64,000 nucleotides of DNA from NCBI RefSeq assembly GCF_003003355.1, contig NZ_PVTQ01000004.1, positions 248,001 through 312,000 on the forward strand, given 5' to 3'. This DNA comes from Donghicola tyrosinivorans (lineage in GTDB: Bacteria; Pseudomonadota; Alphaproteobacteria; Rhodobacterales; Rhodobacteraceae). Under the pieces are notes generated by a model. The model ran no database searches. It was not told where the DNA came from and worked only from the letters and a program-made list of their open reading frames with translations. Position 1 is the stretch's first letter. Each line of letters starts with the position of its first letter. A program made the position numbers and the translations under genes. Shown here one piece after another: positions 6,941 through 61,704 of this stretch.

Positions 6941-6995
6941 GGGGGCGCTGCCCCCGGCCTTGCGGCCTCCCCCGAGGTAATTGGGCCAAGATGAA
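6941..6995 (+). repeat. Tandem-hairpin intergenic repeat, copy B
   Basis: Hairpin 1 is GGGGGC-GCT-GCCCCC at 6941-6955. Hairpin 2 is GGCC-TTGC-GGCC at 6956-6967. The tail is TCCCCCGAGGTAATT, then GGGCCAAGATGAA. It lies in the divergent region between the LysR gene and ivd, pointing towards ivd. The ATG in the tail is in frame with ivd, but the real ivd start is at 7096. Confidence 0.8.
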
Positions 6996-7095
6996 GGGGT
7001 GCGGCGTGAAAGCGCTTGACGGGAGCGCGAAGGTGTTTCTAGGATATGAACAAGCGTTCAATAACGAGCGCCGGCCGGTCTGGGAGGAATCGCCG

Positions 7096-8259
7096 ATGTT
7101 CATGGCTTCGATGACGTTTGACCTTGGGGAAGAGGTGAATGCGCTGCGTGATATGGTGCATCGTTGGGCGCAGGAGCGGGTGAAGCCCATGGCGGCTGCG
7201 GTGGATGCGCAGAACGAGTTTCCCGCAGAGCTGTGGCGCGAGATGGGGGACTTAGGTCTATTGGGGATCACCGTGCCGGAGGAATTCGGCGGCGCAGGCA
7301 TGTCCTATCTGGCCCATACGATTGCAGTGGAAGAGATTGCGCGGGCATCGGCCTCGGTCTCTTTGAGCTATGGGGCCCATTCGAACCTTTGTGTGAACCA
7401 GATCAAGCTGAATGGCACCGATGAACAGAAGCGCAAGTATCTGCCCGGTCTGATCTCGGGCGAGCATGTGGGCGCTTTGGCTATGTCCGAGGCGGGGGCG
7501 GGGTCCGATGTGGTCTCGATGTCGTTGCGGGCCGAAAAGCGGAATGATCATTACCGGCTGAATGGCACCAAGTACTGGATCACCAACGGGCCGGATGCGG
7601 ACACTTTGGTGGTTTATGCCAAGACCGATCCCGAGGCGGGGGCCAAGGGGATTACCGCCTTTATCATCGAGAAGTCGATGGTCGGTTTCTCGACCTCGAA
7701 GCATTTCGACAAGATGGGGATGCGGGGATCGAACACGGCCGAGTTGATTTTCGAGGATGTGGAAGTGCCCTTCGAGAATGTGCTTGGCGAAGAGGGCAAG
7801 GGCGTGCGCGTTCTGATGTCCGGTCTGGATTACGAGCGTGTGGTTCTGGCTGGTATCGGAACGGGGATCATGGCCGCCTGTCTGGACGAGATCATGCCTT
7901 ATCTGGCCGAGCGCAAACAGTTCGGTAAGCCCATCGGGGATTTCCAGCTGATGCAGGCCAAGGTGGCCGATATGTACACGGCCATGAACAGCGCCCGCGC
8001 CTATGTCTATGAGGTCGCCAAGGCCTGTGATCGGGGGCAGGTGACGCGGCAGGATGCAGCGGCCTGTGTGCTTTATGCCAGCGAAGAGGCGATGAAGCAG
8101 GCCCATCAGGCTGTGCAGGCTATGGGTGGCAGCGGCTTTATGAACGACAGCGTCGTGAGCCGTCTGTTCCGTGATGCCAAACTGATGGAGATCGGCGCAG
8201 GCACCAGCGAAATCCGCCGGATGCTGATCGGGCGCGAATTGATGGGTACGATGAAGTGA
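7096..8259 (+). CDS. ivd: Isovaleryl-CoA dehydrogenase
   Basis: A 387-residue FAD enzyme that oxidises isovaleryl-CoA to 3-methylcrotonyl-CoA in leucine breakdown, passing electrons to ETF. The acyl-CoA dehydrogenase fold is complete. The catalytic glutamate is in LDYERVVL (E247), the position used by isovaleryl-CoA dehydrogenases, and the short-chain-type site instead reads AGTSEIRR. The start at 7096 has GGAGGA seven bases upstream; the frame is open further upstream through the repeat but without conservation. The next gene overlaps its stop codon. It heads a run of leucine-degradation genes, which supports the specific name. Confidence 0.95.
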
Positions 8260-8579
8260 GCCTGAGGCAGGTCGCGTTCACAGTTCTTGGGGCCTTTCTG
8301 GCGCTGGTGGCTGTGATCGGCCTGCGATTGGGCTGGCTGGCGGCCAGTCTGACCGAAACCGATGTGATCGAGCGTTATGCGGCGGCCTATCTGGCCGAGG
8401 CAGGGACAGGGGCAGCGCTGTCAAATTGCCATGCGGAAACGGCGCAGGGCCATTGGGTCAAGTTGCGGGTGATCTGCCGCCATCCGGACGGGCGCGAATG
8501 GCGCTTTGGTGCCGGGCTGTGGGGGCAACTGGTTTATGTTGAGCGTATCACACCGGCGCGGATGGAGATGAAGATATGA
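8256..8579 (+). CDS. Small membrane-anchored protein of unknown function
   Basis: A 107-residue protein with one N-terminal hydrophobic segment (about residues 7-30: [19 protein letters not shown]) and a short periplasmic domain with two cysteines ([23 protein letters not shown]). It starts with GTG overlapping the ivd stop codon and ends in an ATGA overlap with the next gene, so it is translated with the leucine genes. I do not recognise the family. The two cysteines could form a disulfide. Confidence 0.75.
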
Positions 8580-9085
8580 GCCGCAAGTTGCCACTATCGC
8601 TTTGTTTTCTTGCCTTGGCCGGTGCTGTTTCTGCGCAAGAGACCTTTGAGTTCGAAGAGGCGCTGGTCGAGCAGTGTTTCCAGAACGCGGCAGAGTTCGG
8701 GCGCTCGGACGATTGTGTCGGCATGGCCGCAGGTCTTTGCATGGAGAAGAACGAAGGCGGCTGGTCCACCTACGGCATGATGGCGTGCCAAGGGCTGGAG
8801 ATCGCTGTTTGGGATGCAAAGCTGAACGGGGAATACCAGCGGGTGCTGGCGCAGGCCAAGCAGATGGATGCGGAGTATATGGATGCAGGTGCTGCCGTCC
8901 CGTCTCAGGAAGAAGCGCTGCGCGAGATGCAAAGAGCGTGGATCGCGTTTCGGGATGGCACCTGTGGATATGAGCGCTCGCTTTGGGGGAATGGCACAGG
9001 CGGAGGTCCCGCAAGCGGCGGTTGCATGATGCGGATGACGGCGGCGCAGGCGATCTATTTGGCCGGTCACGGGCAAGAATACTGA
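8576..9085 (+). CDS. LprI-like (DUF1311) secreted protein
   Basis: A 169-residue secreted protein. A signal peptide covers about residues 1-20 (LCFLALAGAVSAQ). The mature part has cysteines and the DUF1311/LprI pattern, C-n-LNGEYQRVL followed by AWIAFRDGTCGYE. The namesake LprI of Mycobacterium inhibits lysozyme, but most family members are uncharacterised. It is joined by ATGA overlap to the small membrane protein and precedes mccB by 53 bases. Why it sits in a leucine-catabolic operon is not clear from sequence. Confidence 0.78.
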   Translation: MSRKLPLSLCFLALAGAVSAQETFEFEEALVEQCFQNAAEFGRSDDCVGMAAGLCMEKNEGGWSTYGMMACQGLEIAVWDAKLNGEYQRVLAQAKQMDAEYMDAGAAVPSQEEALREMQRAWIAFRDGTCGYERSLWGNGTGGGPASGGCMMRMTAAQAIYLAGHGQEY

Positions 9086-9138
9086 GGTTTTGGGCGCTGC
9101 GCGGTTGGCGGGGTGCCGAGATATAGGGAGGAGCGCCG

Positions 9139-10746
9139 ATGGCGCGGTTGAAAAGCCAGATCCAGACGGGATCGGAAACCTATCGGACCAATCTGGCCGC
9201 CCATGAGGCGATGATTGCCGAGGTTCGCGCGGCGGCTCAGGCGGCTGCCGAAGGGGGCGGCGCGAAGGCGCGTGAGCGGCATTTGTCGCGGGGCAAGATG
9301 TTGCCTCGGGATCGGGTGGCTGGCCTGTTGGATCCGGGCTCTCCGTTTTTGGAGGTTGGGGCGCTGGCGGCCCACGGGATGTATGACGGTGTGGCCCCTG
9401 CTGCCGGTGCAGTGGCTGGAATTGGCCGCGTTCACGGGCGCGATGTCATGGTGGTGTGCAACGATGCCACCGTAAAGGGCGGCACCTATTACCCGATGAC
9501 CGTCAAGAAACACCTGCGCGCCCAAGAGATTGCCGAAGAGTGCAATCTGCCTTGTGTCTATCTGGTGGACAGCGGCGGGGCGAACCTGCCCAATCAGGAC
9601 GAGGTCTTTCCCGACCGCGATCACTTTGGCCGGATTTTCTACAATCAGGCGCGGATGAGTGCCAAGGGCATCCCTCAGGTCGCGGTGGTGATGGGCTCTT
9701 GCACGGCGGGTGGCGCTTATGTGCCTGCTATGTCCGATGTGACAATCATCGTGAAAGAGCAGGGCACGATCTTTCTGGCAGGGCCTCCGCTGGTGAAAGC
9801 GGCGACGGGCGAGGTTGTCTCGGCCGAGGATCTGGGCGGCGGCGATGTGCACACGCGTCTGTCGGGTGTGGCCGACTATCTGGCCGAGGATGATGCCCAT
9901 GCGCTGGCTTTGGCGCGGCAGGCTTTGGGATCGCTGAACCGGCGCTTGCCGGAAACCGTGGATTGGGCCAGCCCTGAAGCGCCTGCCTATGATCCGGCGG
10001 AAATTCTGGGCGTGGTGCCTGGTGATCTGCGCACGCCTTACGACATCCGTGAAGTGATTGCGCGGGTGGTGGACGGTAGCCGCTTTGACGAATTCAAGCC
10101 GCGCTTCGGCGAGACCTTGGTGACCGGCTTTGCCCATGTGGAAGGCTGCCCCGTGGGGATCGTGGCAAACAACGGGGTTCTGTTCTCGGAGGCGGCTGTG
10201 AAGGGCGCGCACTTCGTTGAGCTCTGTGCTCAGCGCCGTATCCCGCTGGTCTTTTTGCAGAATATCACCGGCTTTATGGTGGGGCGGAAGTACGAGAACG
10301 AAGGGATTGCGCGGCACGGGGCCAAGATGGTGACCGCTGTGGCGACGACCAATGTGCCGAAGATCACCATGCTGGTGGGCGGCTCATTCGGGGCGGGGAA
10401 CTATGGCATGGCGGGGCGGGCCTATCAGCCGCGCTTTTTGTGGACGTGGCCCAATAGCCGGATTTCGGTCATGGGCGGTCCGCAAGCGGCCGGAGTTCTG
10501 GCCACGGTCAAGCGCGATGCCATCGAGCGGGCAGGCGGCGCATGGAGTGCCGAGGAGGAAGCGGCCTTCAAGCAGCCGACGCTGGAGATGTTCGAGCGCC
10601 AGAGCCACCCGCTGTATGCCACGGCGCGGCTGTGGGACGACGGGATCATCGATCCCCGCGATACGCGGCGGGTACTGTCCCTGAGCCTGCGGGCGGCGCT
10701 GAATGCGCCGGTGGAAGAAACCAAATTCGGTGTTTTCCGCATGTGA
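9139..10746 (+). CDS. mccB: Methylcrotonoyl-CoA carboxylase, carboxyltransferase (beta) subunit
   Basis: A 535-residue carboxyltransferase that moves the carboxyl group from biotin to 3-methylcrotonyl-CoA, giving 3-methylglutaconyl-CoA. The two crotonase-like halves are visible, with acyl-CoA and carboxybiotin site glycines such as [16 protein letters not shown] and [12 protein letters not shown]. Length matches MCC beta (about 535). A GGAGG ribosome site precedes the ATG. The partner biotin-carrying subunit is downstream, separated by repeat copy C. Propionyl-CoA carboxylase beta is the near alternative, but the neighbours favour MCC. Confidence 0.94.
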
Positions 10747-10761
10747 TCATGGGGGCCGGGT

Positions 10762-10815
10762 GGGGGCTCTGCCCCCGGCCTGCGGCCTCCCCCGAGGTAT
10801 TTGGTCCAAGATGAA
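10762..10815 (+). repeat. Tandem-hairpin intergenic repeat, copy C
   Basis: Hairpin 1 is GGGGGC-TCT-GCCCCC at 10762-10776. Hairpin 2 is GGCC-TGC-GGCC at 10777-10787. The tail is TCCCCCGAGGTATTT, then GGTCCAAGATGAA. It lies between mccB and mccA in the direction of transcription. The tail ATG opens a frame of 11 codons whose TGA (10844-10846) overlaps the mccA start by one base. Confidence 0.82.
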
Positions 10816-10845
10816 AGAGGCGGTCGCGCCGGAGAGGAGGGCCTG

Positions 10846-12792
10846 ATGTTTGATACAGTGTTGATTGCCAATCGTGGCGAGATTGCGTGCCGTGTGGCGC
10901 GCTCGGCCAAGGCGATGGGGCTGCGGGTTGTTGCGGTCTATTCCGAGGCTGATGCAGGCTCTGCCCACGTGGAGATGGCCGATGAGGCGGTGTGCATTGG
11001 CGGGGCCGCGCCTGCGGAGAGCTATCTGCGCGGCGAGCGGATCATCGAGGCGGCTTTGGCCAAAGGTGCCGGTGCGATCCATCCGGGTTATGGATTTTTG
11101 TCTGAGAACCCCGATTTTGTTGAGGCTGTCGAGGCGGCAGGATTGGTGTTCGTGGGGCCATCTGCCCGCGCCATTCGCGCGATGGGATTGAAGGATGCGG
11201 CCAAGGCCTTGATGGCCGAGGCAGGTGTGCCGGTGGTGCCGGGTTATCATGGGGCGGACCAGTCCGAGGCGCGTTTGGCGAATGCGGCAGAAGAGGTTGG
11301 CTATCCGGTACTGATCAAGGCTGTGGCTGGCGGCGGCGGCAAGGGTATGCGTCTGGTCGAGCGGGCTGGGGAGTTTTCCGAAGCTCTGGCCAGTGCGCGG
11401 GCCGAGGCGCGGACGGCATTTGGCAATGAGGCGGTGCTGATCGAGAAGTTTGTCTCGAAGCCGCGCCACATTGAGGTTCAGGTCTTTGGCGATGGTCAGG
11501 GGGCGGTGCATCTGTTTGAGCGGGACTGCTCTTTGCAGCGCCGTCACCAGAAGGTCATCGAGGAGGCGCCTGCGCCCGGTATGACGCCTGAGATGCGCGA
11601 GGCGATGGGCGCGGCGGCGGTGCGGGCCGCCGAGGCGATTGGCTATAGCGGTGCGGGCACAGTCGAGTTCATCGTGGATGGCAGCGGTGGTCTACGTCCT
11701 GATGGGTTCTGGTTCATGGAGATGAACACGCGTTTGCAGGTCGAGCATCCGGTGACCGAAGCCATCACAGGTGTGGATCTGGTGGAATGGCAGTTGCGGG
11801 TTGCCATGGGCGAGGGGCTGCCGTGCGGGCAGGAAGACTTGTCTATCCGCGGGCATGCCTTTGAGGCTCGGCTATATGCGGAGGATGTCGCGAAAGGGTT
11901 TTTGCCCGCGACTGGCCGGTTGGACCATCTGGCGTTTCCTTCGGGCGTGCGCGCCGACAGTGGCGTGCGGGCAGGCGATGAGATCAGCCCCCATTATGAC
12001 CCGATGATTGCCAAGGTGATTGCTCACGGACCCAGCCGTGCGGTGGCATTGGCGCAGTTGGCAGCGGGCTTGGAGGCCACGGAAGTGGCGGGCAGCGTCA
12101 CCAATCTGCGGTTTCTGGCGGCTTTGGCGCGGCATGAGGGCTTTGCCAAGGGGGATGTGGATACCGGCTTGATCGCCCGTGATCTGGAGGCGCTGACCCT
12201 TGAGGCGGATGTGCCTCAGGGCGTTGTGGCGCTGGCGGCGCTGAAGGCTTTGGGACTGGACGAGGAATGTGGCGGCGCTCGGGGCTTTGCCCTTTGGGCA
12301 CCGCTGGAGTGGACCGTTGGCCTGCGCCACGGGGATGAGGACATCCATGCGCGCGTGCGCGTGGAGGGCCCTGACGCATGTGAGGTGCGTTGGGATGAGG
12401 CGTGTGTGTCTTTGCGCCGTGGCCGGGATGGGGGCTGGTCGCAGGGAGGTACACGTGCCGGTCAGGCGGTGATGCACGGGGAGCGCATCACCGTCTTTGA
12501 TCGAGGGGCCTTTGTCTTTGATTATATCGATCCGCTGGCGCGGGATGCGGCGGATGGGGCCTCATTGGATCTGGTGGAAGCGCCGATGCCGGGTCTGGTC
12601 CAGAAGCTGTTTGTTGCGGCCGGAGATACGGTCGCTGCGGGGGACCGGTTGGCCTTGTTGGAGGCGATGAAGATGGAACACGCCCTGCGCGCACCGCGTG
12701 ACGGGGTGGTGGCCGAGGTCCTATGCTCGGAAGGGGATCAGGTGGCTGCCGGTGCGGCGCTGGTCCGGTTGGAAGAGGAGAGCGAGGAATGA
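10846..12792 (+). CDS. mccA: Methylcrotonoyl-CoA carboxylase, biotin-containing (alpha) subunit
   Basis: A 648-residue biotin carboxylase/carrier subunit. The N-terminal biotin carboxylase domain begins FDTVLIANRGEIACRV, the ATP-grasp region has AVAGGGGKGMRLV, and EMNTRLQVEHPVTE closes the carboxylase core. The C-terminal biotinyl domain has EAMKMEH, with the biotin-acceptor lysine at K609. The ATG at 10846 follows GGAGAGGAGG. The stop overlaps the next start (ATGA). The lysine must be biotinylated, and a biotin ligase is encoded at 33682. Confidence 0.95.
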   Translation: MFDTVLIANRGEIACRVARSAKAMGLRVVAVYSEADAGSAHVEMADEAVCIGGAAPAESYLRGERIIEAALAKGAGAIHPGYGFLSENPDFVEAVEAAGLVFVGPSARAIRAMGLKDAAKALMAEAGVPVVPGYHGADQSEARLANAAEEVGYPVLIKAVAGGGGKGMRLVERAGEFSEALASARAEARTAFGNEAVLIEKFVSKPRHIEVQVFGDGQGAVHLFERDCSLQRRHQKVIEEAPAPGMTPEMREAMGAAAVRAAEAIGYSGAGTVEFIVDGSGGLRPDGFWFMEMNTRLQVEHPVTEAITGVDLVEWQLRVAMGEGLPCGQEDLSIRGHAFEARLYAEDVAKGFLPATGRLDHLAFPSGVRADSGVRAGDEISPHYDPMIAKVIAHGPSRAVALAQLAAGLEATEVAGSVTNLRFLAALARHEGFAKGDVDTGLIARDLEALTLEADVPQGVVALAALKALGLDEECGGARGFALWAPLEWTVGLRHGDEDIHARVRVEGPDACEVRWDEACVSLRRGRDGGWSQGGTRAGQAVMHGERITVFDRGAFVFDYIDPLARDAADGASLDLVEAPMPGLVQKLFVAAGDTVAAGDRLALLEAMKMEHALRAPRDGVVAEVLCSEGDQVAAGAALVRLEEESEE

Positions 12793-13451
12793 TCCGGTTA
12801 CATCATTGTCCCCAGAGCCGGTCCATGCGGACCTTGTGGCTGTTGCATGAATTGGGCGTGCCTTTTGAGGTGGTGACTCATGATTTTGGGAAGAACCTGC
12901 GGGATCCGTCCTATCTGGCGCTGTCGCCGGCGGGGCGGGTTCCGGCCTTGGAGATCAACGGCGACACCATGTTCGAGACCGGTGCGATCACTGAATATCT
13001 GTGCGAGCGTTTCCCCGAGGCGGGAATGGGACGGCTGCCAGGAGACCCGGAGCGTCGGGCCTGGCTGGTCTGGGTGCATTTTGCCGAGACCTTGAGTCAG
13101 CATTCAGCGGCGCTGACCCAGCAGCATATCATGCTGTATGAGGCTTCCATGCGCTCGGCGATTGTGACCAAGCTGGAAGCGGCGCGGTTGAAGAAATGCT
13201 ACGGGGCGCTGGAGGCGCGTTTGGCCGAGACAGGCTCGGGTTATTTGCTGGGGTCGGGGTTTTCGGCGGCGGATATCTCGGTTGGGCAGGCGGTCTATAT
13301 GTCCCGCCATTTTGCGGCATTGGACGGGTTCGAAGCGGTTGAGGCGTGGTACGCGCGTCTGGCTGAGCGTCCTGCCTTTCAGGCCTCGCTGCCTGCCGAG
13401 GGGGAATGGCGCCTTTATGCGCGGGATTTCTATCCCCCGTGGGAGGGCTGA
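12789..13451 (+). CDS. Glutathione S-transferase family protein
   Basis: A 220-residue cytosolic protein. The N-terminal thioredoxin-like GST domain starts MIRLHHCPQSRSMRTLWLLHELG, with the glutathione-binding GRVPALEI and ETGAITEYL motifs; an all-helical C-terminal domain follows (FSAADISVGQAVYM). It overlaps the mccA stop by ATGA, so it is co-translated with leucine-degradation genes. It may handle reactive acyl-CoA or enoyl intermediates, but no specific role can be assigned. Confidence 0.85.
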   Translation: MIRLHHCPQSRSMRTLWLLHELGVPFEVVTHDFGKNLRDPSYLALSPAGRVPALEINGDTMFETGAITEYLCERFPEAGMGRLPGDPERRAWLVWVHFAETLSQHSAALTQQHIMLYEASMRSAIVTKLEAARLKKCYGALEARLAETGSGYLLGSGFSAADISVGQAVYMSRHFAALDGFEAVEAWYARLAERPAFQASLPAEGEWRLYARDFYPPWEG

Positions 13452-13505
13452 ACGCCCCCTTGGCGGGGGCGTGGCCTCCGGCGGAGGTATTTTTGCCAAG
13501 ATGAA
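13452..13505 (+). repeat. Tandem-hairpin intergenic repeat, copy D
   Basis: Hairpin 1 is ACGCCCCC-TTGGC-GGGGGCGT at 13452-13472. Hairpin 2 is CCTCC-GGC-GGAGG at 13475-13487, overlapping the start of the tail GAGGTATTTTTGCCAAGATGAA. It begins directly at the stop codon of the GST-like gene and ends 14 bases before hmgL, in the direction of transcription. Stem sequences differ from copies B and C while the fold is kept. Confidence 0.8.
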
Positions 13506-13519
13506 CGGGGAGGCGCCGT

Positions 13520-14377
13520 ATGGAACGGGTCGAGATCTTTGAAGTGGGTCCGCGGGACGGGTTGCAGAACGAGCCGCGTCCGATTCCTTTGGAAGAAAAG
13601 CTGGCGCTGATTGATCTACTGTCGCAGGCGGGGTTCCGGCGGATCGAGGTGGCCAGCTTTGTGAGCCCAAAGTGGGTGCCGCAGATGGCAGATTCGGGCG
13701 AGGTGCTGGCGGGAATCAGGCGTGCTGCTGGCGTGCGCTATGCGGCCCTGACGCCGAATATGAAGGGGTTGGAGCGGGCGATTGCCGCGCGGGCCGACGA
13801 GGTGGCGATTTTCGCAAGCGCCTCGGAAGGGTTTTCGAAATCCAATCTGAACTGCTCGATCGAAGAGAGCTTTGAGCGGTTCGCGCCTCTGGCCGAGGCG
13901 GCAAAGGCCGCCGGATTGCCCGTGCGCGGCTATGTGAGCTGCGCGACGGACTGCCCTTTTGACGGGGCGATTGCGCCAGCGGCTGTGGCGGCAGTCGCGG
14001 GCCGTTTGTGGGCGATGGGCTGTTATGAGGTGTCTGTGGCGGACACCATCGGGCGCGGAACAGCCGAGGCCGTGGGGGCCATGCTGGACGCGGTTCTGGG
14101 CGAAGTGCCTGCCAGCGGGCTGGCGGGGCATTTTCATGACACCGGTGGGCAGGCGTTGCAGAACATCGGGGTTTCTCTGGAGAAGGGTTTGCGCGTGTTC
14201 GATGCGGCTGTCGGCGGCCTTGGAGGCTGTCCCTATGCGCCGGGGGCTGCGGGGAATGTAGCGACCGAAGCGGTGGCAGATTATCTGGCCGCAGCGGGCT
14301 ATGAGACAGGTTTGAAGCGGGACATTCTGGCGCAGGCCGGACAAATGGCGCGGGCTATGCGGGGAGCAGGGGAATGA
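13520..14377 (+). CDS. hmgL: Hydroxymethylglutaryl-CoA lyase
   Basis: A 285-residue TIM-barrel lyase that splits HMG-CoA into acetoacetate and acetyl-CoA, the last step of leucine catabolism. The N terminus EVGPRDGLQNEP carries metal and substrate residues. The family signature with catalytic cysteine is GLGGCPYAPGA (C237), and GHFHDT provides metal-binding histidines. Length is typical (about 285-300). It is linked by ATGA overlap to the downstream hydratase gene. Confidence 0.94.
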   Translation: MERVEIFEVGPRDGLQNEPRPIPLEEKLALIDLLSQAGFRRIEVASFVSPKWVPQMADSGEVLAGIRRAAGVRYAALTPNMKGLERAIAARADEVAIFASASEGFSKSNLNCSIEESFERFAPLAEAAKAAGLPVRGYVSCATDCPFDGAIAPAAVAAVAGRLWAMGCYEVSVADTIGRGTAEAVGAMLDAVLGEVPASGLAGHFHDTGGQALQNIGVSLEKGLRVFDAAVGGLGGCPYAPGAAGNVATEAVADYLAAAGYETGLKRDILAQAGQMARAMRGAGE

Positions 14378-15159: not shown

Positions 15160-15335
15160 GCCCGTGCTGCACCTTGCCTGTAAGGGATTTGGTGTAAGTG
15201 AAAGCCCCGATTTGCCAGAATATTCATGGTTGTGAATGTATGTTTGTTCGTGTTGACCCCATAAGGGGGCAGGCGTAAGAAGCAGCGCAAGCATAGCAGC
15301 CAGTGAATGCGTTAGACGCAGGAAAGGAGCCACGC
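15160..15335 (+). promoter_or_regulatory. nuo operon upstream region
   Basis: This 176-base gap separates the leucine genes from nuoA and should hold the main nuo promoter. A possible -35 TTGCCA (15212-15217) with GAATGT 16 bases downstream is weak. A small hairpin, CCCC-ATAA-GGGG, lies at about 15261-15272. AGGAG precedes the GTG start of nuoA. No terminator with a T-run is visible after the hydratase gene, so read-through is possible. Confidence 0.35.
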
Positions 15336-16225
<890 letters not shown>

Positions 16226-16228
16226 GCG

Positions 16229-16837: not shown

Positions 16838-16852
16838 GGGAAGGTTTGTGAC

Positions 16853-18076: not shown

Positions 18077-18085
18077 TTTCTTTCG

Positions 18086-51501: not shown

Positions 51502-52074
51502 ATGTCCCGTGAGACTGTTCTGGGTAAGGCCCTGATCACTTCGGATGCTCTTGGCTGGAAAGCCGCACAGGTTCTGGGTGGCTCGCTGTTTGTTGCAGTG
51601 GCTGCACAGGTAAGCGTCCCGATGTTCCCCGTACCGATGACCCTGCAGACCCTGGCGATCCTGCTGGTCGGCTTTACACTGGGCTCGCGCATGGGTGCGC
51701 TGGCGCTGCTGACCTATCTGGCAGAAGGCGCAGCCGGTCTGCCTGTCTTTGCAAACGGTGCGAGCACCGCTGCCCTGTTCGGCCCCACCGCAGGCTTCCT
51801 GATCGGCTTCGTCGGACTGGCATGGCTGGCAGGTTTTGCTGCTGAAAAAGGCGCAACCCGCAATGTCTTCCTGGCCGCTGCTGCCGGTATCGTCGCTTCG
51901 GTTTTGCTGTACATCCCCGGTCTGGCACTGCCCGCACTGGCGTTCGGCAAGACCATGGACGTTCTGTGGATGCACTGGATGTCGCCCTTCCTGATCGGTG
52001 ACACCGTGAAAGCCGTTCTGGCCGCGCTGATCGTGACCGGCGCGCTGAAGGCTCTGAAAGGCGCGAAGGCATAA
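51502..52074 (+). CDS. bioY: Biotin transporter substrate-binding subunit BioY
   Basis: A 190-residue membrane S-component with six helices. The diagnostic segment AQVSVPMFPVPMTLQTLAILLVGFTLGSRMGALALLTYLAEGAAGLPVF is present. No bioM or bioN lies next to it, so it may work alone or with shared energising units. GAGAGGAGG precedes the ATG. No BioR-type palindrome (TTATCTATAA) is found upstream. It probably supplies biotin for MCC and acetyl-CoA carboxylase. Confidence 0.93.
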   Translation: MSRETVLGKALITSDALGWKAAQVLGGSLFVAVAAQVSVPMFPVPMTLQTLAILLVGFTLGSRMGALALLTYLAEGAAGLPVFANGASTAALFGPTAGFLIGFVGLAWLAGFAAEKGATRNVFLAAAAGIVASVLLYIPGLALPALAFGKTMDVLWMHWMSPFLIGDTVKAVLAALIVTGALKALKGAKA

Positions 52075-52106
52075 GCCTTTCCGTCAGCCCAGGCTGTTTA
52101 AGATTG

Positions 52107-52143
52107 CCGCCGTTGCCCCATCGGGCAGCGGCGGTTTTCTTTT
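52107..52143 (+). terminator. Rho-independent terminator of bioY
   Basis: The stem CCGCCGTTGCCC/GGGCAGCGGCGG (12 pairs, one G-T) with loop CATC is followed by TTTTCTTTT. Confidence 0.9.
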
Positions 52144-52155
52144 GTGGATGATGTC

Positions 52156-52218
52156 AGGGGCCTTGCCCCTCTTGGCCCTCCGGGCCAATTCACCCCAAGG
52201 TATTTTATCCAAGATGAA
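52156..52218 (+). repeat. Tandem-hairpin intergenic repeat, copy E
   Basis: Hairpin 1 is AGGGGC-CTT-GCCCCT at 52156-52170. Hairpin 2 is TTGGCCC-TCC-GGGCCAA at 52172-52188. The tail is ATTCACCCCAAGGTATTTTA followed by TCCAAGATGAA. It lies behind the bioY terminator and before the convergent DUF1284 gene, in bioY orientation. The tail matches copy A closely. Confidence 0.82.
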
Positions 52219-52230
52219 AATGGGTGCACT

Positions 52231-52647
52231 TTAGGCGCTGTGCAGCTCTTCGAGGGCCGAGTGGCAAAGGCCGAGGTCCAGCCATTGGCATCCCGCGCAG
52301 AGCGTGTTGAGGTCTGCGGGACGAACGTTTGCCTTGATGCGGGATTTGGCCTCTGACCAAGTCAGGGTCTCGCCACCTGTCAGGCCGATGGCGCGCGCAT
52401 GGCGTTGATCAAGAGCAGTGATCTTGTCGCCGGCGGTGCAGCCTTCGCCGCGCCGTTTGGGGCAGGGGGTGCAGATGCTGTCAGCTGTGAGGCGGACAGT
52501 GATCAGGGTGGTGTCACCGTCGGGCGCAAAGAGGCCATCGGTGACGATCCGTGTCATGTTTGCTGTAAAATCGTCCGAGTACCCCTTTCCTCTGTACCCG
52601 AGGGCACAGAGGAAGTGGTGTGGCCGGAAGGTGAGCGGTACGCTCAT
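52231..52647 (-). CDS. DUF1284 domain protein
   Basis: A 138-residue protein with the family start LTFRPHHFLCALGYRGKGYS and seven cysteines, including DSICTPCPKRRGEGC and TLCAGCQWLDLGLC. The cysteine spacing suggests an iron-sulfur cluster or zinc site, but the family is uncharacterised. Its start overlaps the purF stop (ATGA), so it is the last gene of the purF operon. Confidence 0.85.
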   Translation of the reverse strand: MSVPLTFRPHHFLCALGYRGKGYSDDFTANMTRIVTDGLFAPDGDTTLITVRLTADSICTPCPKRRGEGCTAGDKITALDQRHARAIGLTGGETLTWSEAKSRIKANVRPADLNTLCAGCQWLDLGLCHSALEELHSA

Positions 52648-54113: not shown

Positions 54114-54206
54114 GAGGGGTCTCCGAATCCAAGAATGGCCTAGCACGGCCCCATATAAGGGCCGCGCTGTGAAGTGTCACGAAAGGATTACAAATCCAAG
54201 CTGTCG

Positions 54207-54764
54207 TTATTTAGTGCCGCATGCGCCGACCAGACCTTCGTACTGCTGGGTCAGCCAGCCAAGCGCCTGTTCGGGGTTCTGTTCGGCGATGCCATCGGTC
54301 ATTTTGGCAAAGACAGCGGCCGAACGGGAATTGTTCACCATCTCAACGTTCTGGGTGGTCATGACGGTGTTGTAGAGGAAGAACGCGATAGCCACCAAGA
54401 GGATGCCACGCACCACGCCGAAGATGAAGCCAAGGCCCTGATCCACGCTGCCAAGGGCCGAACGCTGGACGATCGAGGAAAACAGCGGGGTGAAGAGGGA
54501 CACCACCACCAGCGCCACGGCAAAGACCAGCGCGAAGGCGGTGATGATCGACAATTCACAGCTGTCCGCGATGAAACCGCCCACACCGGGGATTTCTTTG
54601 ACCAGAGGTTCCACATTGGGGGCAAAGATGAAGGCCAGCACTGCGGCGGCAACCCAGCCGACAATGGCCATGATCTCGCGCACGACGCCTCGCGAGAACG
54701 CCAGCAGCGCCGAGAGGACCACGACGCCTGCAACAGCCGCGTCGATAATCGTGAAACCTTCCAT
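54207..54764 (-). CDS. cvpA: CvpA family membrane protein
   Basis: A 185-residue inner-membrane protein with four helices; the conserved segment is SRGVVREIMAIVGWVAAAVLA near residue 25 followed by VDQGLGFIFGVVRGILLV. CvpA is linked genetically to colicin V production and to purF regulation or envelope stability, but its molecular role is unclear. It sits between radA and purF, the usual neighbour. Confidence 0.9.
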   Translation of the reverse strand: MEGFTIIDAAVAGVVVLSALLAFSRGVVREIMAIVGWVAAAVLAFIFAPNVEPLVKEIPGVGGFIADSCELSIITAFALVFAVALVVVSLFTPLFSSIVQRSALGSVDQGLGFIFGVVRGILLVAIAFFLYNTVMTTQNVEMVNNSRSAAVFAKMTDGIAEQNPEQALGWLTQQYEGLVGACGTK

Positions 54765-54785
54765 CGTATTTCCCCGTTTTAAGCA

Positions 54786-56153
54786 CTAGCCTGCGCCGAA
54801 AACATCTCCGACGAAAGCAGTCAAATCCTCGTAAGCGCGTTGGCTGATACCAGCGATCTTTGCGCCTTTCTTGCCCTTTGGCACAATCGCGTTCGAGAAA
54901 CCAAGTTTTTCTGCTTCTTTCAACCTGTTTTCCGCCTGACCCACCGGACGTAAGGCACCCGAAAGGCTGATTTCGCCAAAAACCACTGTATCTGCGGGTA
55001 GGGCGGAATCTTCACGAGCCGAAAGTAGCGCTGCCGCAACGGCCAGATCGGCGGCGGGTTCTGACAGTTTCATGCCGCCCGCTACGTTCAGATAGACGTC
55101 CAGGCCGGCAAAGCTGATGCCGCAGCGCGCTTCAAGCACCGCAAGCACCATGGCAAGGCGGGCCGAGTCCCATCCGACCACAGCGCGGCGCGGCTGGCTG
55201 AGGGAACTGGGGGCGACCAGCGCCTGAAATTCAACCAAGACAGGGCGGGTGCCTTCGATGCCCGAGAACACGACCGAGCCGGGGCTGGGGTTGCCGCGCT
55301 CTGACAGGAACAGGGCCGAGGGGTTGGTGACCTCGGACAGGCCGCTGCCGGTCATCTCAAAGACGCCGATCTCATCGGCAGGGCCAAAGCGGTTTTTCAC
55401 GCTGCGCAGAATACGGAATTGGTGCCCGCGTTCGCCCTCGAAATACAGAACTGTGTCCACCATGTGTTCGACCACGCGGGGACCGGCGATCTGGCCTTCC
55501 TTGGTGACGTGGCCGACCAGAATCACTGCCATATCGTTGCGTTTGGCAAATGTGGTCAGCTCATGAGCGGCGGCGCGGACCTGACTGACGCTGCCGGGGG
55601 CGCTGTCCACATTGTCGGCCCACATGGTTTGGATCGAATCGATGATCGCCAGACGGGGCTTTTCGGTCTCAAGCGTAGTGAGGATGTCGCGCAGGTTGGT
55701 TTCGGCCCCCAGCAGCACCGGCGCGTTTGCAAGGCCAAGACGTTGGGCGCGCATTCTGACCTGAGCGCTGGCTTCCTCGCCCGATATATAAACGGTCTTC
55801 ACCCCGTTCTGGGCAAAGCGTGCTGCAGCTTGCAGCAAGAGGGTCGATTTGCCGATGCCCGGATCGCCGCCCACCAGAATCGCGCTGGCATCCACCAGAC
55901 CTCCGCCTAGAACGCGGTCCAGTTCGCCCATTCCGCTTAAGGTGCGGGGCGGGGGCGTTTCGGCCGTGCCAAGGTCGGTCAGGGGGATGCTGCGGCCCTT
56001 CATCGCGCCAAGGGATTTCTTGGCGGGACCAGCCGAAGATAGGGGCTTTTCCTCGACGATGGTGTTCCATTCGCCGCAAGCGTCACAACGGCCCGACCAT
56101 TTCGAAGTGGCCGCGCCGCAAGCAGTACAGGTGAAGTTCAGTGTTTTAGCCAT
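54786..56153 (-). CDS. radA: DNA repair protein RadA (Sms)
   Basis: A 455-residue RecA-related branch-migration ATPase. The N-terminal C4 zinc finger uses C9, C12, C23 and C26; Walker A is GGDPGIGKSTLLLQ; the RadA-specific KNRFG motif is VKNRFGPADEIG; a Lon-protease-like domain forms the C terminus. Full length. It lies 21 bases upstream of cvpA. Confidence 0.95.
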   Translation of the reverse strand: MAKTLNFTCTACGAATSKWSGRCDACGEWNTIVEEKPLSSAGPAKKSLGAMKGRSIPLTDLGTAETPPPRTLSGMGELDRVLGGGLVDASAILVGGDPGIGKSTLLLQAAARFAQNGVKTVYISGEEASAQVRMRAQRLGLANAPVLLGAETNLRDILTTLETEKPRLAIIDSIQTMWADNVDSAPGSVSQVRAAAHELTTFAKRNDMAVILVGHVTKEGQIAGPRVVEHMVDTVLYFEGERGHQFRILRSVKNRFGPADEIGVFEMTGSGLSEVTNPSALFLSERGNPSPGSVVFSGIEGTRPVLVEFQALVAPSSLSQPRRAVVGWDSARLAMVLAVLEARCGISFAGLDVYLNVAGGMKLSEPAADLAVAAALLSAREDSALPADTVVFGEISLSGALRPVGQAENRLKEAEKLGFSNAIVPKGKKGAKIAGISQRAYEDLTAFVGDVFGAG

Positions 56154-56234
56154 GGCAAAGTCATGCCCAATGGCAGCGCACAGCGCAAGTGTTCTTTGTT
56201 TGTTTCTCTTCTGGTTTCGCGAAACCGGTCAGCT

Positions 56235-56624
56235 TTAGAACCAGCTGACCCATGCCCAAAGAAGCAGGAAGCCAACGAAAACAACCGCATGGACCCAGTC
56301 CAGCCAAGGCCAGTTACGCCCCCGCGCGGTAGTCGAGGCCACAAGCGCCAGCGATGCGCCAATGGGTAGTCCCAAGCCGCCGCCGCTTTGCTTCAGTTGC
56401 GTGGCATAGTTGAAGAGGGGCCCCGCATAGAGGCCGATAGCGGGCATTACATAGATGGTGAACAGCCCCACCAGACACAGCAGCAGCGCCACAAGCGCCC
56501 AGATGCGGGCAGGCGAGCGGCTGGAGTAAACCCGTGCCAAAGCGATCGGGACAAGGATCGCCAGATAGATCCCGTTTTGCAGGGCAAAAAAGATCATAAC
56601 AGGGGTACTCGTCTCAAACAGCAT
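56235..56624 (-). CDS. Small integral membrane protein of unknown function
   Basis: A 129-residue protein with about four hydrophobic segments. It starts at MLFETSTPVMIFFALQNG (ATG 56624, with AGGA upstream), ten bases after the MlaF-like gene. A conserved family cannot be named. Location between the lipid transporter and radA suggests an envelope protein expressed with the operon. A 14-base palindrome (56213-56226) lies just after its stop codon. Confidence 0.7.
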   Translation of the reverse strand: MLFETSTPVMIFFALQNGIYLAILVPIALARVYSSRSPARIWALVALLLCLVGLFTIYVMPAIGLYAGPLFNYATQLKQSGGGLGLPIGASLALVASTTARGRNWPWLDWVHAVVFVGFLLLWAWVSWF

Positions 56625-56632
56625 GGGTCGTC

Positions 56633-57379
56633 CTATCTTACGGCAGCAATTGGCCCCTCGGCGCGGCCATGAATGAACTGGTCCAGATAAGGATTGCCCG
56701 ATGCATCCATTTGCGCAACAGGGCCAGTCCACTGAACCACCCCTTCGTGGATCATCGCGATGTTGTCGGCAATGGCGCGAACGGATGTCATGTCGTGGGT
56801 AATGGTCATCGCGGTTGCACCCATTTCGGTTACAATCTCGCGGATCAAGTCATTGATGACGCCGGACATAATCGGATCAAGGCCGGTGGTCGGCTCATCG
56901 AAAAAGATGATTTCGGGGTCGGCCGCGATGGCACGGGCAAGGCCCACACGCTTTTGCATGCCGCCGGACAGTTCAGCCGGAAATTTGTCGGCCACATCCG
57001 GTTTCAGGCCCACACGGCGCAGCTTTTCGATGGCAATTTCGCGGGCCTCAGTCTTGGGCCGCTTGAGGCTGCCGCGCAGCAGACGGAAGGCGACGTTCTG
57101 CCAGACGGGTAGGCTGTCAAACAGCGCCGCGCCTTGGAACAGCATCCCGAAACGGGCAAGGAAGGGATCGCGGCTGGCGGTCTCGACGTTCTGGCCGTCC
57201 ACCATGATGGTTCCCTGATCGGGATGGACCAGACCCAGAATGCATTTCAGCAGCACTGACTTTCCGGTCCCTGAGCCGCCGATGATCACCATGGAACTGC
57301 CCTTGGCAATCTCAAGGTTCACGCCGCGCAGCACGTGGTTCGAGCCGAAGGTTTTGTGGATATCGGTCAGCTGGATCAT
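56633..57379 (-). CDS. mlaF: Mla-type ABC transporter ATP-binding protein
   Basis: A 248-residue ATPase of the MlaF/Ttg2A family, which powers phospholipid traffic between the membranes. GGSGTGKSVLLKC (Walker A), LSGGMQKRVGLARA (signature), IIFFDEPTTGLDP (Walker B) and the family-specific MLFQGAALFDSL are seen. It overlaps the MlaE gene by ATGA. The periplasmic MlaD/MlaC partners are not in this window. Confidence 0.9.
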   Translation of the reverse strand: MIQLTDIHKTFGSNHVLRGVNLEIAKGSSMVIIGGSGTGKSVLLKCILGLVHPDQGTIMVDGQNVETASRDPFLARFGMLFQGAALFDSLPVWQNVAFRLLRGSLKRPKTEAREIAIEKLRRVGLKPDVADKFPAELSGGMQKRVGLARAIAADPEIIFFDEPTTGLDPIMSGVINDLIREIVTEMGATAMTITHDMTSVRAIADNIAMIHEGVVQWTGPVAQMDASGNPYLDQFIHGRAEGPIAAVR

Positions 57380-58152
57380 GCGGCGAAGAACAACTCTGTC
57401 AGAATGTAGTTGGCGGCGAAGATCAGGACCGAGGCGGAGACGACTGCGGACTTGGTTGCACGGCCCACGCCTTGCGCCCCGCGGCCCGAATTCATGCCAT
57501 GATAGCAGCCCATCGTGGCCACGATAAACCCGAAGGCCGCGCCCTTTACGAGACCCGAGATAATGTCCCAGCCTTCCAGAAAGTCCACGGTGTTCTTGAT
57601 GTAGGTGGCAGCGTTGAAATCCAGACGGTTCACGCCCACCACATAGCCGCCGAAAATCCCGATGGAATCGCCCACGGCCACCAGCACCGGAACAGCCAGC
57701 GTTGCTGCCAGAACGCGGGGAAGTGTCAGGTATTTCATGGGGTTGGTGGACAAAGTTGTCAGCGCATCGATCTGCTCGGTCACTTTCATCGTGCCGATCT
57801 CAGCAGCGATTGAACTGGCCACACGGGCAGCGACCATCAGGCCACCAAGCACAGGCCCCAATTCGCGCACCATACCGATGGCGACGATGGAAGGCACCAC
57901 CTCTTCGGCCCCGTAGCGCGATCCACCTGCAAAGATTTGCAACGCCAAAGCGCCACCGGTGAAGAAGGCGGTAAGGCCCACCACGGGCAGGGACAGCCAG
58001 CCGATCTGGATCAGCGCGTTAAGGAATTCGCGCGGATAGAACGGCGGGCGAAACAGGTGGCTGACGGTCTGCGCGGCGTAGAGAACCACCGCGCCAATAG
58101 ATGCCAGCGCCCCCATCACAGCGCGCCCGAGTGAGGCCAGTAGACGGATCAT
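57376..58152 (-). CDS. mlaE: Mla-type ABC transporter permease
   Basis: A 258-residue MlaE permease with about five helices. Conserved signatures are [47 protein letters not shown] and [18 protein letters not shown]. It overlaps both alr and the ATPase gene by ATGA, so the three are translated together. Likely role: keeping outer-membrane lipid asymmetry. Confidence 0.92.
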
Positions 58153-59189
58153 GCGCCGATATACTTCCGCTGGTAGCGATTGCCGAGGCTGGTCAGGATT
58201 TCATAGCCGATGGTGCCAGCGGCGGTTGCCACTTGATCCACCGTTTGATGTTTTCCAAGCAGCTCGACCGTTTCGGGAATATGGTCCAGATGGGTGATGT
58301 CGATGCCAATGAGGTCCATCGAAACGCGCCCCAGAATTGGGCAGGCGACACCATTGGCATAGACTTTACCCTTGCCCGATTGGGCGCGGATGATGCCGTC
58401 AGCGTAACCGGCGGCGATGGTCGCCACGCGGGTGGGCTTGTCGGCGGTCCAGCTGTTGCCGTAACCCACGGTCTCGCCCGCCTCAACGATACGAGACTGG
58501 ATTACGGGGATGTTCAGATGGGCGACGGGCTGCGCATCCACAAAGGGCTCGGCCCCGTACATGCCGATGCCGGGGCGGGTCACGTCGAAATGGTAGTCGG
58601 CCCCCAGCAGGATGCCGCCCGTCGCGCTAAGGGCGCGGGGGGCGTTGATGCCGTCGGTCATGGCTTTGAACGCGGCCAGTTGCTGCGCGTTCATGGCGTG
58701 ATCAGGCTCATCCGCGCAGGCAAGGTGGCTCATGACCAGCACGGGGTTTGCGGCCAGAACGGCGTCTTTGACGCTGTCCCATTCCGCCGGTTCCATGCCC
58801 AGACGGTTCATGCCGCTGTCCAGCTGGATGCCGAAGGGGCGACCGGCACTTTCGGCCTGATGACGCTGCCATTGCTCGGCCGAGTTCAGCATGGGGATCA
58901 GGTCCGCGTTGCGGATCACTGTCGCATCACCTGCCATATGGCCGCCAAACACGAAGATCTGCGGATCGGGGCCCACGGCGTGGCGTACCTCAATGCCTTC
59001 TTCTGCAATGGCGACAAAGAATTTCTTGGCGCCTTCACGGGCCAGTCGAGCGGCGACCGTTGCGGCCCCCAACCCGTATGCATCGGCTTTCACAACGGCG
59101 CCAGCCTCGGCATTGCCGGAGGCGGCGGCCAGAGCGCGCCAGTTCGCCACAAGGGCGTCGAGATCGATCATCAGTTCAGAACGTGCCAT
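58149..59189 (-). CDS. alr: Alanine racemase
   Basis: A 346-residue PLP enzyme giving D-alanine for peptidoglycan. The PLP lysine is in [11 protein letters not shown] (K34), and the second-site segment [10 protein letters not shown] has the catalytic tyrosine region. It is slightly short of E. coli Alr (359) but complete. It is followed by mlaE with an ATGA overlap, and lies 79 bases downstream of dnaB. Confidence 0.93.
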
Positions 59190-59268
59190 GCCGCTTTGAT
59201 GCCATTTGGCATTGCAGGGTCAAGAGAAATCGCTGTGAACTTGTATCCTGTGAACGGTAAAGGGCGGC

Positions 59269-60750
59269 TTAATAGTCGCCGCCCTGATCTTGTTGCCATG
59301 GTTTCACAAGGTTGCCAAAGCGGGTGAACTGGGATTCGAACGCCAGTTCCACGGTGCCGATGGGACCGTGACGCTGCTTGCCCAGGATAACCTCGGCCTT
59401 GCCGTGCAGGCGCTCCATCTCTTCCTGCCAGACTTGCAGGCGTTCCAGATCGTGTTCGCCCGGCTTTTCCCGTTCCTTGTAGTATTCCTCGCGGAACACG
59501 AACATCACCACGTCGGCGTCCTGTTCGATCGAACCCGATTCACGCAGGTCTGACAGCTGCGGACGTTTATCTTCGCGGTTTTCCACCTGACGCGACAGCT
59601 GCGATAGGGCGATCACGGGGATCTGCAGTTCCTTGGCGATGGCCTTCAAACCCTGCGTAATCTCCGAGATTTCGTTCACGCGGTTTTCCGACTGCGAGCC
59701 GCGCAGCAGCTGCAAATAGTCGACCATCAGCACATCAAGGCCGTGGGTCCGTTTCAGACGGCGGGCGCGGGCGGCGACCTGAGAGATCGGCAGCGCGGGC
59801 GTGTCGTCGATGTATAGCGGGCAGGATTCGAGGCTTTTCGCGGCTTCCACAAAGCGGCGGAATTCGGTCTCGGTGAAATCACCCTGACGGATTTTGTGCG
59901 AGCTGATCTCGGACGCTTCGGCCAGAATACGGCTGGCCAGCTGGTCCGCGCTCATTTCCAAGCTGAAAAAGCCCACGCAGCCGCCGTCCAATGTGCCTTC
60001 GCTACCATCGGGGCGCAGGCCCTTTCGGTAGGCTTTGGCCACGTTGAAGGCGATGTTGGTTGCCAGCGAGGTTTTCCCCATCGAGGGACGTCCCGCCAGA
60101 ATGATAAGGTCCGACGGGTGCAGGCCACCCATTTTCTTGTCCAGATCGATCAGACCGGTCGAGATACCCGCCAGCTGACCTTCGCGCTGGTAGGCGATGT
60201 TGGCGACGTTCACCGCCTCGGTCACGGCACGCAGGAACGACTGGAAGCCGGTTTCCGATTTGCCCTGTTCGCCAAGTTTGTAGAGCTTTTGCTCGGCCTC
60301 GGTGATCTGTTCGCGGGGGTCGTTGTGGACCTCGATCTTGGAGGCCTTGCCCGAGATTTCCTGTCCCAGTTGGATCAATTCACGGCGGATGGCCATATCA
60401 TAGATCATCTGGGCGTAATCGCGTGCCGCGTAGGCCGCCACGGCGCTGCCCGCAAGGCGGGCCAGATAGGCGGGGCCGCCCAGTTCCTTCAGGCCTTCGT
60501 CATTTTCCAGAAACGCCTTTAGCGTCACGGGCGAGGCCAGCATGTTCTTGGAGATCTTTGCCGCAGCCGTCTCATAAATCCGGGCGTGGACCGGATCGTG
60601 GAAATGGGTGGGCTTGATCAGGGTGGCGACACGATCGTAGATTTCGTTGTTCGTCAGAATGGCCCCTAGCAATTGCTGCTCGGCCTCGATCGAGTGGGGC
60701 AGCCCTTCAGAGGCCTCCACCTGTGCTTTGATCGCTGCGATCTCGTTCAT
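59269..60750 (-). CDS. dnaB: Replicative DNA helicase
   Basis: A 493-residue hexameric replicative helicase. N-terminal domain: PHSIEAEQQLLGAILTNNEIYD. RecA-like motor: Walker A LAGRPSMGKTSLATN, Walker B LDVLMVDYLQL, and the arginine-finger region KQRHGPIGTVELAFE. No intein. It heads the minus-strand run dnaB-alr-mlaE-mlaF-orf-radA-cvpA-purF. Confidence 0.96.
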   Translation of the reverse strand: MNEIAAIKAQVEASEGLPHSIEAEQQLLGAILTNNEIYDRVATLIKPTHFHDPVHARIYETAAAKISKNMLASPVTLKAFLENDEGLKELGGPAYLARLAGSAVAAYAARDYAQMIYDMAIRRELIQLGQEISGKASKIEVHNDPREQITEAEQKLYKLGEQGKSETGFQSFLRAVTEAVNVANIAYQREGQLAGISTGLIDLDKKMGGLHPSDLIILAGRPSMGKTSLATNIAFNVAKAYRKGLRPDGSEGTLDGGCVGFFSLEMSADQLASRILAEASEISSHKIRQGDFTETEFRRFVEAAKSLESCPLYIDDTPALPISQVAARARRLKRTHGLDVLMVDYLQLLRGSQSENRVNEISEITQGLKAIAKELQIPVIALSQLSRQVENREDKRPQLSDLRESGSIEQDADVVMFVFREEYYKEREKPGEHDLERLQVWQEEMERLHGKAEVILGKQRHGPIGTVELAFESQFTRFGNLVKPWQQDQGGDY

Positions 60751-60837
60751 CTTATCCTCGTGATACGGGTGGCTCTAGGCAATAGCGGAGAGCGATGCGC
60801 GATGGCAAATTGTATAACCCTGTGGGTAAAATGTGAA

Positions 60838-60871
60838 TAACGCGCCCCCATGATTTTGTAGGAGCGCGTTA
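60838..60871 (-). terminator. Probable terminator hairpin after pyrE
   Basis: TAACGCGC and GCGCGTTA form an eight-base inverted repeat with an 18-base loop between pyrE and dnaB. On the minus strand it is followed by TTCACATTTTACC, a weak T-run. Confidence 0.55.
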
Positions 60872-60934
60872 CCTTTCGTCTACATGTCCGCTTTTCCCGT
60901 CAAACGGGTGGCGGGCTTTTGCCGGTGGCGGGGA

Positions 60935-61615
60935 TTAGCCTTTTTTGTTGGCTTCCTGCCACTCGCGCGGTGCGTTCAGGAATTTCTCGACCTCGGTCAG
61001 GGTCTCTTCGTCGAAGGCGCCGCTTTCCTTGGCCTCGGCAAGAACGTCCCACCAGGTGCAGAGATAGTGCAGATCAACGCCGTGATCGCCGAGGGTTTTC
61101 TCGGTTTCGGGGAAGATGCCGTAGTAGAAAATCACCGCAGTATGGCCGCAGGTCGCGCCGGTTTCGCGGATCGCATCCACGAAGGACAGTTTCGAGCCGC
61201 CGTCGGTGGTCAGGTCTTCCACCAGCAGAACCCGTTCGCCTTCAGTCATCGCGCCTTCGATGCGGGCGTTGCGACCGTAGCCCTTGGGCTTTTTGCGCAC
61301 ATAGGTCATGGGCAGCGCCATACGTTCCGCGACCAGAGCTGCGAACGGAATGCCTGCGGTCTCGCCGCCAGCGATATTGTCGAAGGCCTCAAAGCCCGCA
61401 TTGCGCATGACGGTGACGGTCAGGAAGTCCATCAGGGTGCTGCGGATGCGCGGGAAACTGATCAGCTTGCGGCAGTCGATATAGGTGGGCGAGGGCAGGC
61501 CGGAGGCCAGAGTGAAGGGCTCACGTGCGTTGAAGTGGACGGCCTTGATTTCCAGCAGCATGCGGGCGGTCAGGCGGGCGATCTCTTCGCGGGTGGGGTA
61601 GGAGGTGGGGATCAT
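60935..61615 (-). CDS. pyrE: Orotate phosphoribosyltransferase
   Basis: A 226-residue enzyme converting orotate and PRPP to OMP in pyrimidine synthesis. The substrate segments [15 protein letters not shown] and [11 protein letters not shown] are visible, and the PRPP loop is [13 protein letters not shown]. It follows pyrC on the same strand, with repeat copy F lying in between in the opposite orientation. Confidence 0.94.
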
Positions 61616-61641
61616 CGGTGTGGTTCCTTGTGGCTGCGGAG

Positions 61642-61704
61642 GGGGGGCTGTCTGCCCCCCGGCGCAATCGCGCCTCCCCCCGAAGGTATTTTTGCCAAGA
61701 TGAA
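61642..61704 (+). repeat. Tandem-hairpin intergenic repeat, copy F (antisense to pyrC-pyrE)
   Basis: Hairpin 1 is GGGGGGC-n5-GCCCCCC at 61642-61660. Hairpin 2 is GGCGC-AATC-GCGCC at 61661-61674. The tail is TCCCCCCGAAGGTATTTTTG then CCAAGATGAA. It is the only copy opposite to the genes on both sides. Its tail ends one base from the pyrC stop codon. Confidence 0.82.

Follow-up and report, generated by a model that had tools for sequence, protein, structure and literature searches.

A stretch of 64,000 nucleotides from Donghicola tyrosinivorans (contig NZ_PVTQ01000004.1, positions 248,001 to 312,000; hereafter the window) carries six copies of an intergenic element in which GC-rich hairpins run into a constant tail. 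These copies had been predicted from the sequence alone, and all six were found in place: a search with AGGTATTTNNNCCAAGATGAA at up to three mismatches gave exactly six matches in the window, compared to a mean of 0.01 in 100 shuffles. The tail is exact in five of the six copies, and that at 6975-6995 contains one mismatch (GGTAATT). The positions in the original prediction stood, but copy A lies on the minus strand, the family extends well beyond six members (84 exact tails), and two tails of other classes are present in the window. The six-copy repeat forms one class, class A, within a large collection of short signals that are specific to each genome and lie behind Rhodobacteraceae genes. 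The features and their neighbouring genes are as follows.

1120-1190, minus strand: copy A, class A element, two hairpins, then exact tail at 1120-1140; neighbours, solute-binding protein gene (1194-2459, minus) and permease gene (239-1093, minus)
4430-4450, plus strand: class C tail AGTATTTGGGCAATAAGGAAG, first member of a tandem C-B pair
4502-4521, plus strand: class B tail AGTATTTGGATCAAGAAGAA, second member of the tandem C-B pair
6941-6995, plus strand: copy B, class A element, one-mismatch tail at 6975-6995; neighbours, LysR-type gene (5996-6886, minus) and acyl-CoA dehydrogenase open reading frame (ORF; 6811-8259, plus)
10762-10815, plus strand: copy C, class A element, exact tail at 10795-10815; neighbours, carboxyltransferase gene (9139-10746, plus) and biotin carboxylase gene (10846-12792, plus)
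13452-13505, plus strand: copy D, class A element, exact tail at 13485-13505; neighbours, GST-like gene (12723-13451, plus) and HMGL-like gene (13520-14377, plus)
52156-52218, plus strand: copy E, class A element, exact tail at 52198-52218; neighbours, BioY gene (51502-52074, plus) and DUF1284 gene (52231-52647, minus)
61642-61704, plus strand: copy F, class A element, exact tail at 61684-61704; neighbours, phosphoribosyltransferase-domain gene (60935-61615, minus) and amidohydrolase gene (61706-62746, minus)

The first domain of the acyl-CoA dehydrogenase ORF at 6811-8259 starts only at residue 107, and the spacer of copy B is probably divergent. A plus-strand ORF overlapping copy F (60884-62803) gave no Pfam match. 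The tandem C-B pair (4430-4521) occupies the spacer between convergent genes, with terminator-like hairpins directly before and behind it, of which that at 4527-4549, directly 3' of the class B tail, was listed in a terminator scan. No Rfam family matched anywhere in the window at gathering score.

The family was traced by pattern searches with reversed-pattern controls in the whole draft genome (4,684,200 bases, 61 contigs). The class A tail, GGTATTT-N3-CCAAGATGAA, occurs 84 times in exact form, 42 times on each strand (control 0). Allowing up to three mismatches raised the count to 137 (control 1), comprising 84 exact matches, 11 with one mismatch, 3 with two and 39 with three; among the matches listed, two with three mismatches are members of class B. 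The class B tail, AGTATTT-N3-TCAAGAAGAA, is found at 33 sites (21 exact and 12 with one mismatch; control 0) and the class C tail, AGTATTT-NNG-CAATAARGAAG, at 55 (all exact; control 0), giving about 170 sites (84 + 33 + 55) in 4.68 Mb. Spacing within the tail is nearly invariant: at the 91 places where CCAAGATGAA follows TATTT within 25 nt, the two are separated by 3 nt in 84 cases, 4 nt in six and 2 nt in one. The outer A is conserved at 1.9 bits and the N positions at 0.4-0.7 bits; conservation of the other tail letters is partly by construction because the loci were fetched by exact pattern. The tail is the constant core of class A, and the hairpins are optional modules. Two tail subtypes, as first described, turned out to be types of hairpin linker, the deeper split being that between the tail word classes.

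Three kinds of module lie upstream of class A tails: a G-run hairpin with a second hairpin and a C-run, which comes with either of two types of linker; a G-run hairpin and a C-run without the second hairpin; and a short hairpin such as GCCTCCGGCGG, which passes directly into the tail. No module type fits 11 of the 80 class A copies, and class B tails, judged by eye, mostly have no directly preceding hairpin. The hairpins differ between copies yet stay self-complementary, as had been stated, and selection on structure gained support: second-hairpin segments fold at a mean of -10.2 kcal/mol (n = 74), compared to -5.3 kcal/mol with halves swapped between copies (n = 314), and changes in the hairpin arms come in pairs. 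In ordinary folding, the six window copies do only mildly better than shuffled sequence (z -1.4 to -2.9).

Covariation was also seen between modules, in a parse that took in 160 of 334 elements (139 unique), the rest not matching the form with two C-runs, and with shuffles that do not model relatedness. The length of the G-run in hairpin 1 equals that of the second C-run in 103 of the 139 unique elements (53 in shuffles, standard deviation 4.5). Furthermore, pre-tail bases, namely those lying between the second C-run and the three letters next to TATTT, number at least two in 27 distinct types, and in 13 of these the loop of hairpin 1 holds their reverse complement, compared to 5.8 (standard deviation 1.8) after shuffling; a count of 13 was reached in 0 of 2000 shuffles. 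The corresponding duplex energy is -1.84 kcal/mol (-1.29 shuffled, standard deviation 0.15; 1 of 500 shuffles as low). The hairpin-1 loop and the bases beside the tail thus look like partners in a pseudoknot-type contact, which is unproven because GAGG is a poor pairing partner for CGCTG, the most frequent loop, and because of the same disregard of relatedness in the shuffles. Three other ideas on tail and hairpin were abandoned: that the tail contains a start codon (AAG ATG AAA), since the letters past the tail look unrelated among copies by eye; that hairpin 2 carries a complement of the tail (TCTTGG), since the hairpin form persists without this complement in genomes whose words differ, again by eye; and that the tail was copied from the loop, since the block order does not fit a single templated copy.

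Gene contexts were taken from our own simple gene caller and cover 80 of 85 class A sites (five exact ones left out), 30 of class B and 42 of class C. Class A tails lie mainly between two genes on their own strand (30 of 80) or between convergent genes (28), followed by spacers with both neighbours on the opposite strand (13), divergent spacers (4), calls inside a gene (3) and one-sided contexts (2). Of the three calls inside a gene, two concern copies in the window (6976 and 61685) at which Pfam favours different genes. At most 3 of 80 class A tails, and 0 of 72 in classes B and C, are inside genes. Convergent spacers hold 21 of the 30 class B tails (6 sense tandem, 3 antisense tandem) and 23 of the 42 class C tails (12 sense tandem, 6 antisense tandem, 1 divergent). 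Over all classes, tails in tandem spacers are in sense orientation 48 times and in antisense 22 times (p 0.0025). Of the 59 class A copies with an upstream neighbour on the same strand, 50 have its stop codon 28-83 nt ahead of the tail, a distance about equal to the length of the hairpin module. Among 42 copies with an opposite-strand gene downstream, 16 have the end of that gene 2-12 nt away. Two annotated plasmids gave comparable placements: the match in Ruegeria starts 15 nt past a stop codon, between same-strand genes for xanthine dehydrogenase subunits, and that in Sagittula is in the spacer of convergent genes.

Judged by the products of their same-strand neighbours, three window copies (A, C and D) and the element in Ruegeria are likely to sit within operons. 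This placement, together with the sense bias and the covarying hairpins, is what would be expected of an RNA-level site for 3' processing or mRNA stability, in which the hairpins block 3' exonucleases and the tail binds a nuclease or an RNA-binding protein, separating the fates of operon neighbours. Such a site would hardly account for the class A tails in antisense (13 of 80) or divergent (4 of 80) positions, or for the many class B tails without a directly preceding hairpin, and we regard it as quite unlikely.

The element had also been held not to be a standard terminator, on the argument that no T-run follows hairpin 2. This argument failed for copy D, in which CCTCCGGCGGAGG is followed by TATTTTTG, a T-run directly behind hairpin 2; by sequence, copy D is a textbook intrinsic terminator with a short hairpin at 13474-13488 and a T-run, and it was listed in a terminator scan of 1-14000. 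The short-hairpin type also prefers TT in N3: the three letters begin with TT in 10 of 11 short-hairpin copies, compared to 21 of 58 copies with two C-runs (p 0.0016) and 4 of 11 of the rest, a preference that fits a U-tract. Copy D and the short-hairpin type would suit plain intrinsic terminators whose flank is shared by chance, but the word is exact in 84 of 98 tails (at up to two mismatches) while hairpins and N3 vary, it differs between genera, and a hairpin directly ahead of the tail is missing in many members of class B, which makes this explanation highly improbable. Since copy E follows what looks like a complete terminator, and some tails of other genera are directly behind a T-run, the tail appears to be more than a terminator.

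Comparison with the congener G002 revealed how the sites change in place. Thirteen of our own loci were compared, out of 22 that had a match of some kind in 800 kb of that genome, and the tail was read by eye in both genomes at nine. Six of these nine belong to the same class in both; in two a single word letter differs, and several of the six carry paired changes in the hairpin arms. The word is replaced at the other three: behind an identical hairpin (L052), with the loop and a pre-tail base changed together (L027), and without a hairpin (L264). As to the remaining loci, L016 shows only a class A tail further downstream in G002, no element was seen at L013, L268 was not assigned either way, and L002 has a different hairpin and no tail; a swap to an ordinary terminator at L002 was rejected, as that hairpin is preceded by an A-run and lacks a T-run after it. 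Several of the genes next to the elements have similar protein sequences in different genera, and at two such sites the element is on the other strand.

Classes B and C also occur as same-direction pairs, 55-88 bp from start to start, in the 498.9 kb of own-genome loci surveyed (overlaps included). Nine pairs are B-C, eight C-B and none homotypic (B-B or C-C), and 17 mixed pairs out of 17 have a p of 2.5e-6 under random mixing at class frequencies; slippage loss of homotypic direct repeats could explain part of this mixing. The spacings cluster at about 55-60 and 71-78 bp, plus one of 88 bp. Face-to-face and back-to-back tail pairs are also present, in our own genome and in Rhodobacter loci. 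At L032 (C4:234146-240046 of our genome), two back-to-back class A pairs, with tails pointing outward 120-121 bp apart, are separated by about 1.8 kb. Five loci from Rhodobacter and other relatives (L071, L113, L137, L161 and L173) hold face-to-face class A tails with a gap of about 10-11 bp, each tail with its own upstream part.

Elements that are interspersed, intergenic and modular, that form mixed tandem and inverted pairs in both orientations, and that are on opposite strands at two orthologous sites in another genus, resemble a mosaic interspersed repeat of the kind of repetitive extragenic palindromes and bacterial interspersed mosaic elements (REP/BIME) or Rhizobium-specific intergenic mosaic elements (RIME). 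Such a repeat would be mobilised enzymatically and tolerated behind genes, the classes being repeat families and any terminator use secondary. We consider this unlikely, given the non-palindromic tail, the fixed offset between word and TATTT, and the kept hairpin at L052 where the word has changed. A REP-like mobile repeat had been proposed; mobility through a REP-associated tyrosine transposase (RAYT) found no backing, as the 61-contig draft genome yielded no PF01797 (Y1, RAYT-type transposase) match at E 0.001, compared to matches in 5 of 14 control genomes.

The family is widespread in related genera, as pattern searches over successively looser forms indicated. Exact class A tails number 16, 35 and 17 in same-genus genomes and 0 in the other 37 of 41 genomes searched. 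A looser tail pattern matched in 32 of 120 family genomes, with up to 130 copies (2 control matches overall). From 88 genomes without an exact match, 47 were searched with one mismatch allowed and 35 were positive, 16 of them with at least nine matches (3 control matches); a still looser form matched in 31 of 57 genomes, 14 with at least nine (5 control matches). A hairpin end followed by RTATTT was found in 10 of 25 genomes with few or no matches, six with at least five (1 control match), and in none of the other 15. The related genera keep the hairpins and RTATTT and differ in the word, the letters after RTATTT being genome-specific, as in CCAATAAGAA (G081), CAACAATGAA (G099) and GCTCGATGAGAGG (G068), and G097 has three tail forms in one genome; single matches to the hairpin end with RTATTT, such as that of G120, look like chance. 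Among the matches listed, the class A tail is carried by Rhodobacter, Pseudorhodobacter, Nioella, Frigidibacter and Roseivivax, with single matches also in unrelated genera. Contigs classed as viral gave five matches, of which only L314 (IMGVR_UViG_3300043015_002785) has hairpin context, annotated phages gave one weak match to the hairpin part alone, in an Arthrobacter phage, and 14 plasmid records matched, ten from Rhodobacterales genera and four from Prescottella with the hairpin part only.

Lineage dialects of this kind, present here as other words in other genera and as the three forms of G097, are also a feature of DNA uptake (self-recognition) sequences of the DNA uptake sequence/uptake signal sequence (DUS/USS) type, and the tails could be such sequences that have come to lie in terminators. 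DUS/USS occur at roughly one per 1-2 kb, a density that the 84 + 33 + 55 tails in 4.68 Mb fall below, and the H. influenzae genome is about 1.8 Mb in size. Words peculiar to a genome, the presence of several classes in one genome, inverted pairs and a location at gene ends all have counterparts in extracts of PMC1852404, but about 170 sites stand against the 1,471 USS given there for H. influenzae, genes are avoided, and the distance to TATTT is fixed, making an uptake role improbable.

The explanation that we favour, tentatively and short of an even chance, is that the tails are bipartite, genome-specific mRNA-end signals read by a putative factor, and that in class A they are fused to terminator-type hairpins. 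The conserved unit is RTATTT-N3 and a word of about 10 nt, situated behind stop codons; the word is near-uniform inside a class in each genome, with up to three classes per genome, and varies between genera. The site may define mRNA ends by termination, which in operons would probably be partial, and the putative reader may act on DNA or on nascent RNA, with a specificity that would shift between lineages. In class A, GC hairpin modules are fused to the site, so that TATTT and N3 can act as the U-tract of an intrinsic terminator. This explanation draws on the placement behind stops, the sense bias, the fixed spacing, the U-tract preference of short hairpins and the terminator at copy D, and likewise on the sharp word classes, the change of word in place, the genus-specific words with kept hairpins and the mixed B/C pairs.

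Several observations weigh against it. Four elements, namely window copies A, C and D and the one in Ruegeria, are inside likely operons, where a full stop would do harm; the sites are therefore read as mRNA-end signals that may act partially, and these placements are why the explanation was widened from termination to mRNA-end formation and is held with reserve. Among class A tails, 13 of 80 are antisense in tandem spacers and 4 of 80 lie between divergent genes. The terminator scan lists one of the four copies in 1-14000 (A, B and C not being listed), and copy E sits, by eye, behind a complete-looking ordinary terminator. The U-tract test may count descent because the T4 copies share one hairpin sequence. 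Finally, the reader is putative and the mRNA-end role is deduced from DNA sequence.

A more specific version is possible but doubtful, namely that in Rhodobacteraceae the ends of transcription units are marked by bipartite signals that are specific in sequence and independent of hairpins, with a fast-diverging family of reading factors, one per class, switching of class in place, B/C pairs acting as double stops, and class A fused to a pseudoknotted GC terminator. The original prediction as a whole is partly supported.

About 170 class-specific sites, lineage dialects and in-place word change point to an undescribed gene-end reader in an abundant bacterial family. Were the sites to form mRNA ends, a sequence-specific stop or processing signal would be added to those of bacteria; were they to serve uptake or mobility, such systems would be extended to a new group. 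In either case the words may be used as direct baits for finding the factor. No description of the tail family was found in the literature, in a search thin on subscription papers, so that absence in print is not shown.

Known systems share some features with the tails and lack others. REP/BIME are interspersed intergenic repeats found behind genes and in operons and forming mosaic pairs, in all of which the tails are alike; unlike them, the conserved tail is asymmetric and non-palindromic and the hairpin sequence varies. Terminators with DUS/USS, as far as extracts of PMC1852404 and PMC13020248 describe them, resemble the tails in genome-specific words, lineage dialects, inverted pairs and gene-end/terminator sites. 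The latter study sought frequent k-mers in the terminators of many genomes and, in the extracts, names Neisseriaceae and Pasteurellaceae; the term 'rhodobacter' is absent from its main text. Unlike DUS/USS, the tail word is behind the hairpin at a fixed distance and not in the stem, and the tails are about tenfold fewer or less per kb and nearly absent from genes. The HRC-8-4 motif, likened here by its description in part of PMC8632094, is a terminator-like stem with conserved bases and is confined to Rhodobacterales; the same description sets it apart, as most of its occurrences are at a single locus (between ccoNOQP and ccoGHIS) and its conserved bases are at the loop. Intrinsic terminators share with copy D and the short-hairpin type a GC hairpin followed by a T-rich tract, and the tails differ from them in a conserved word past the expected RNA end and in members that have no hairpin.

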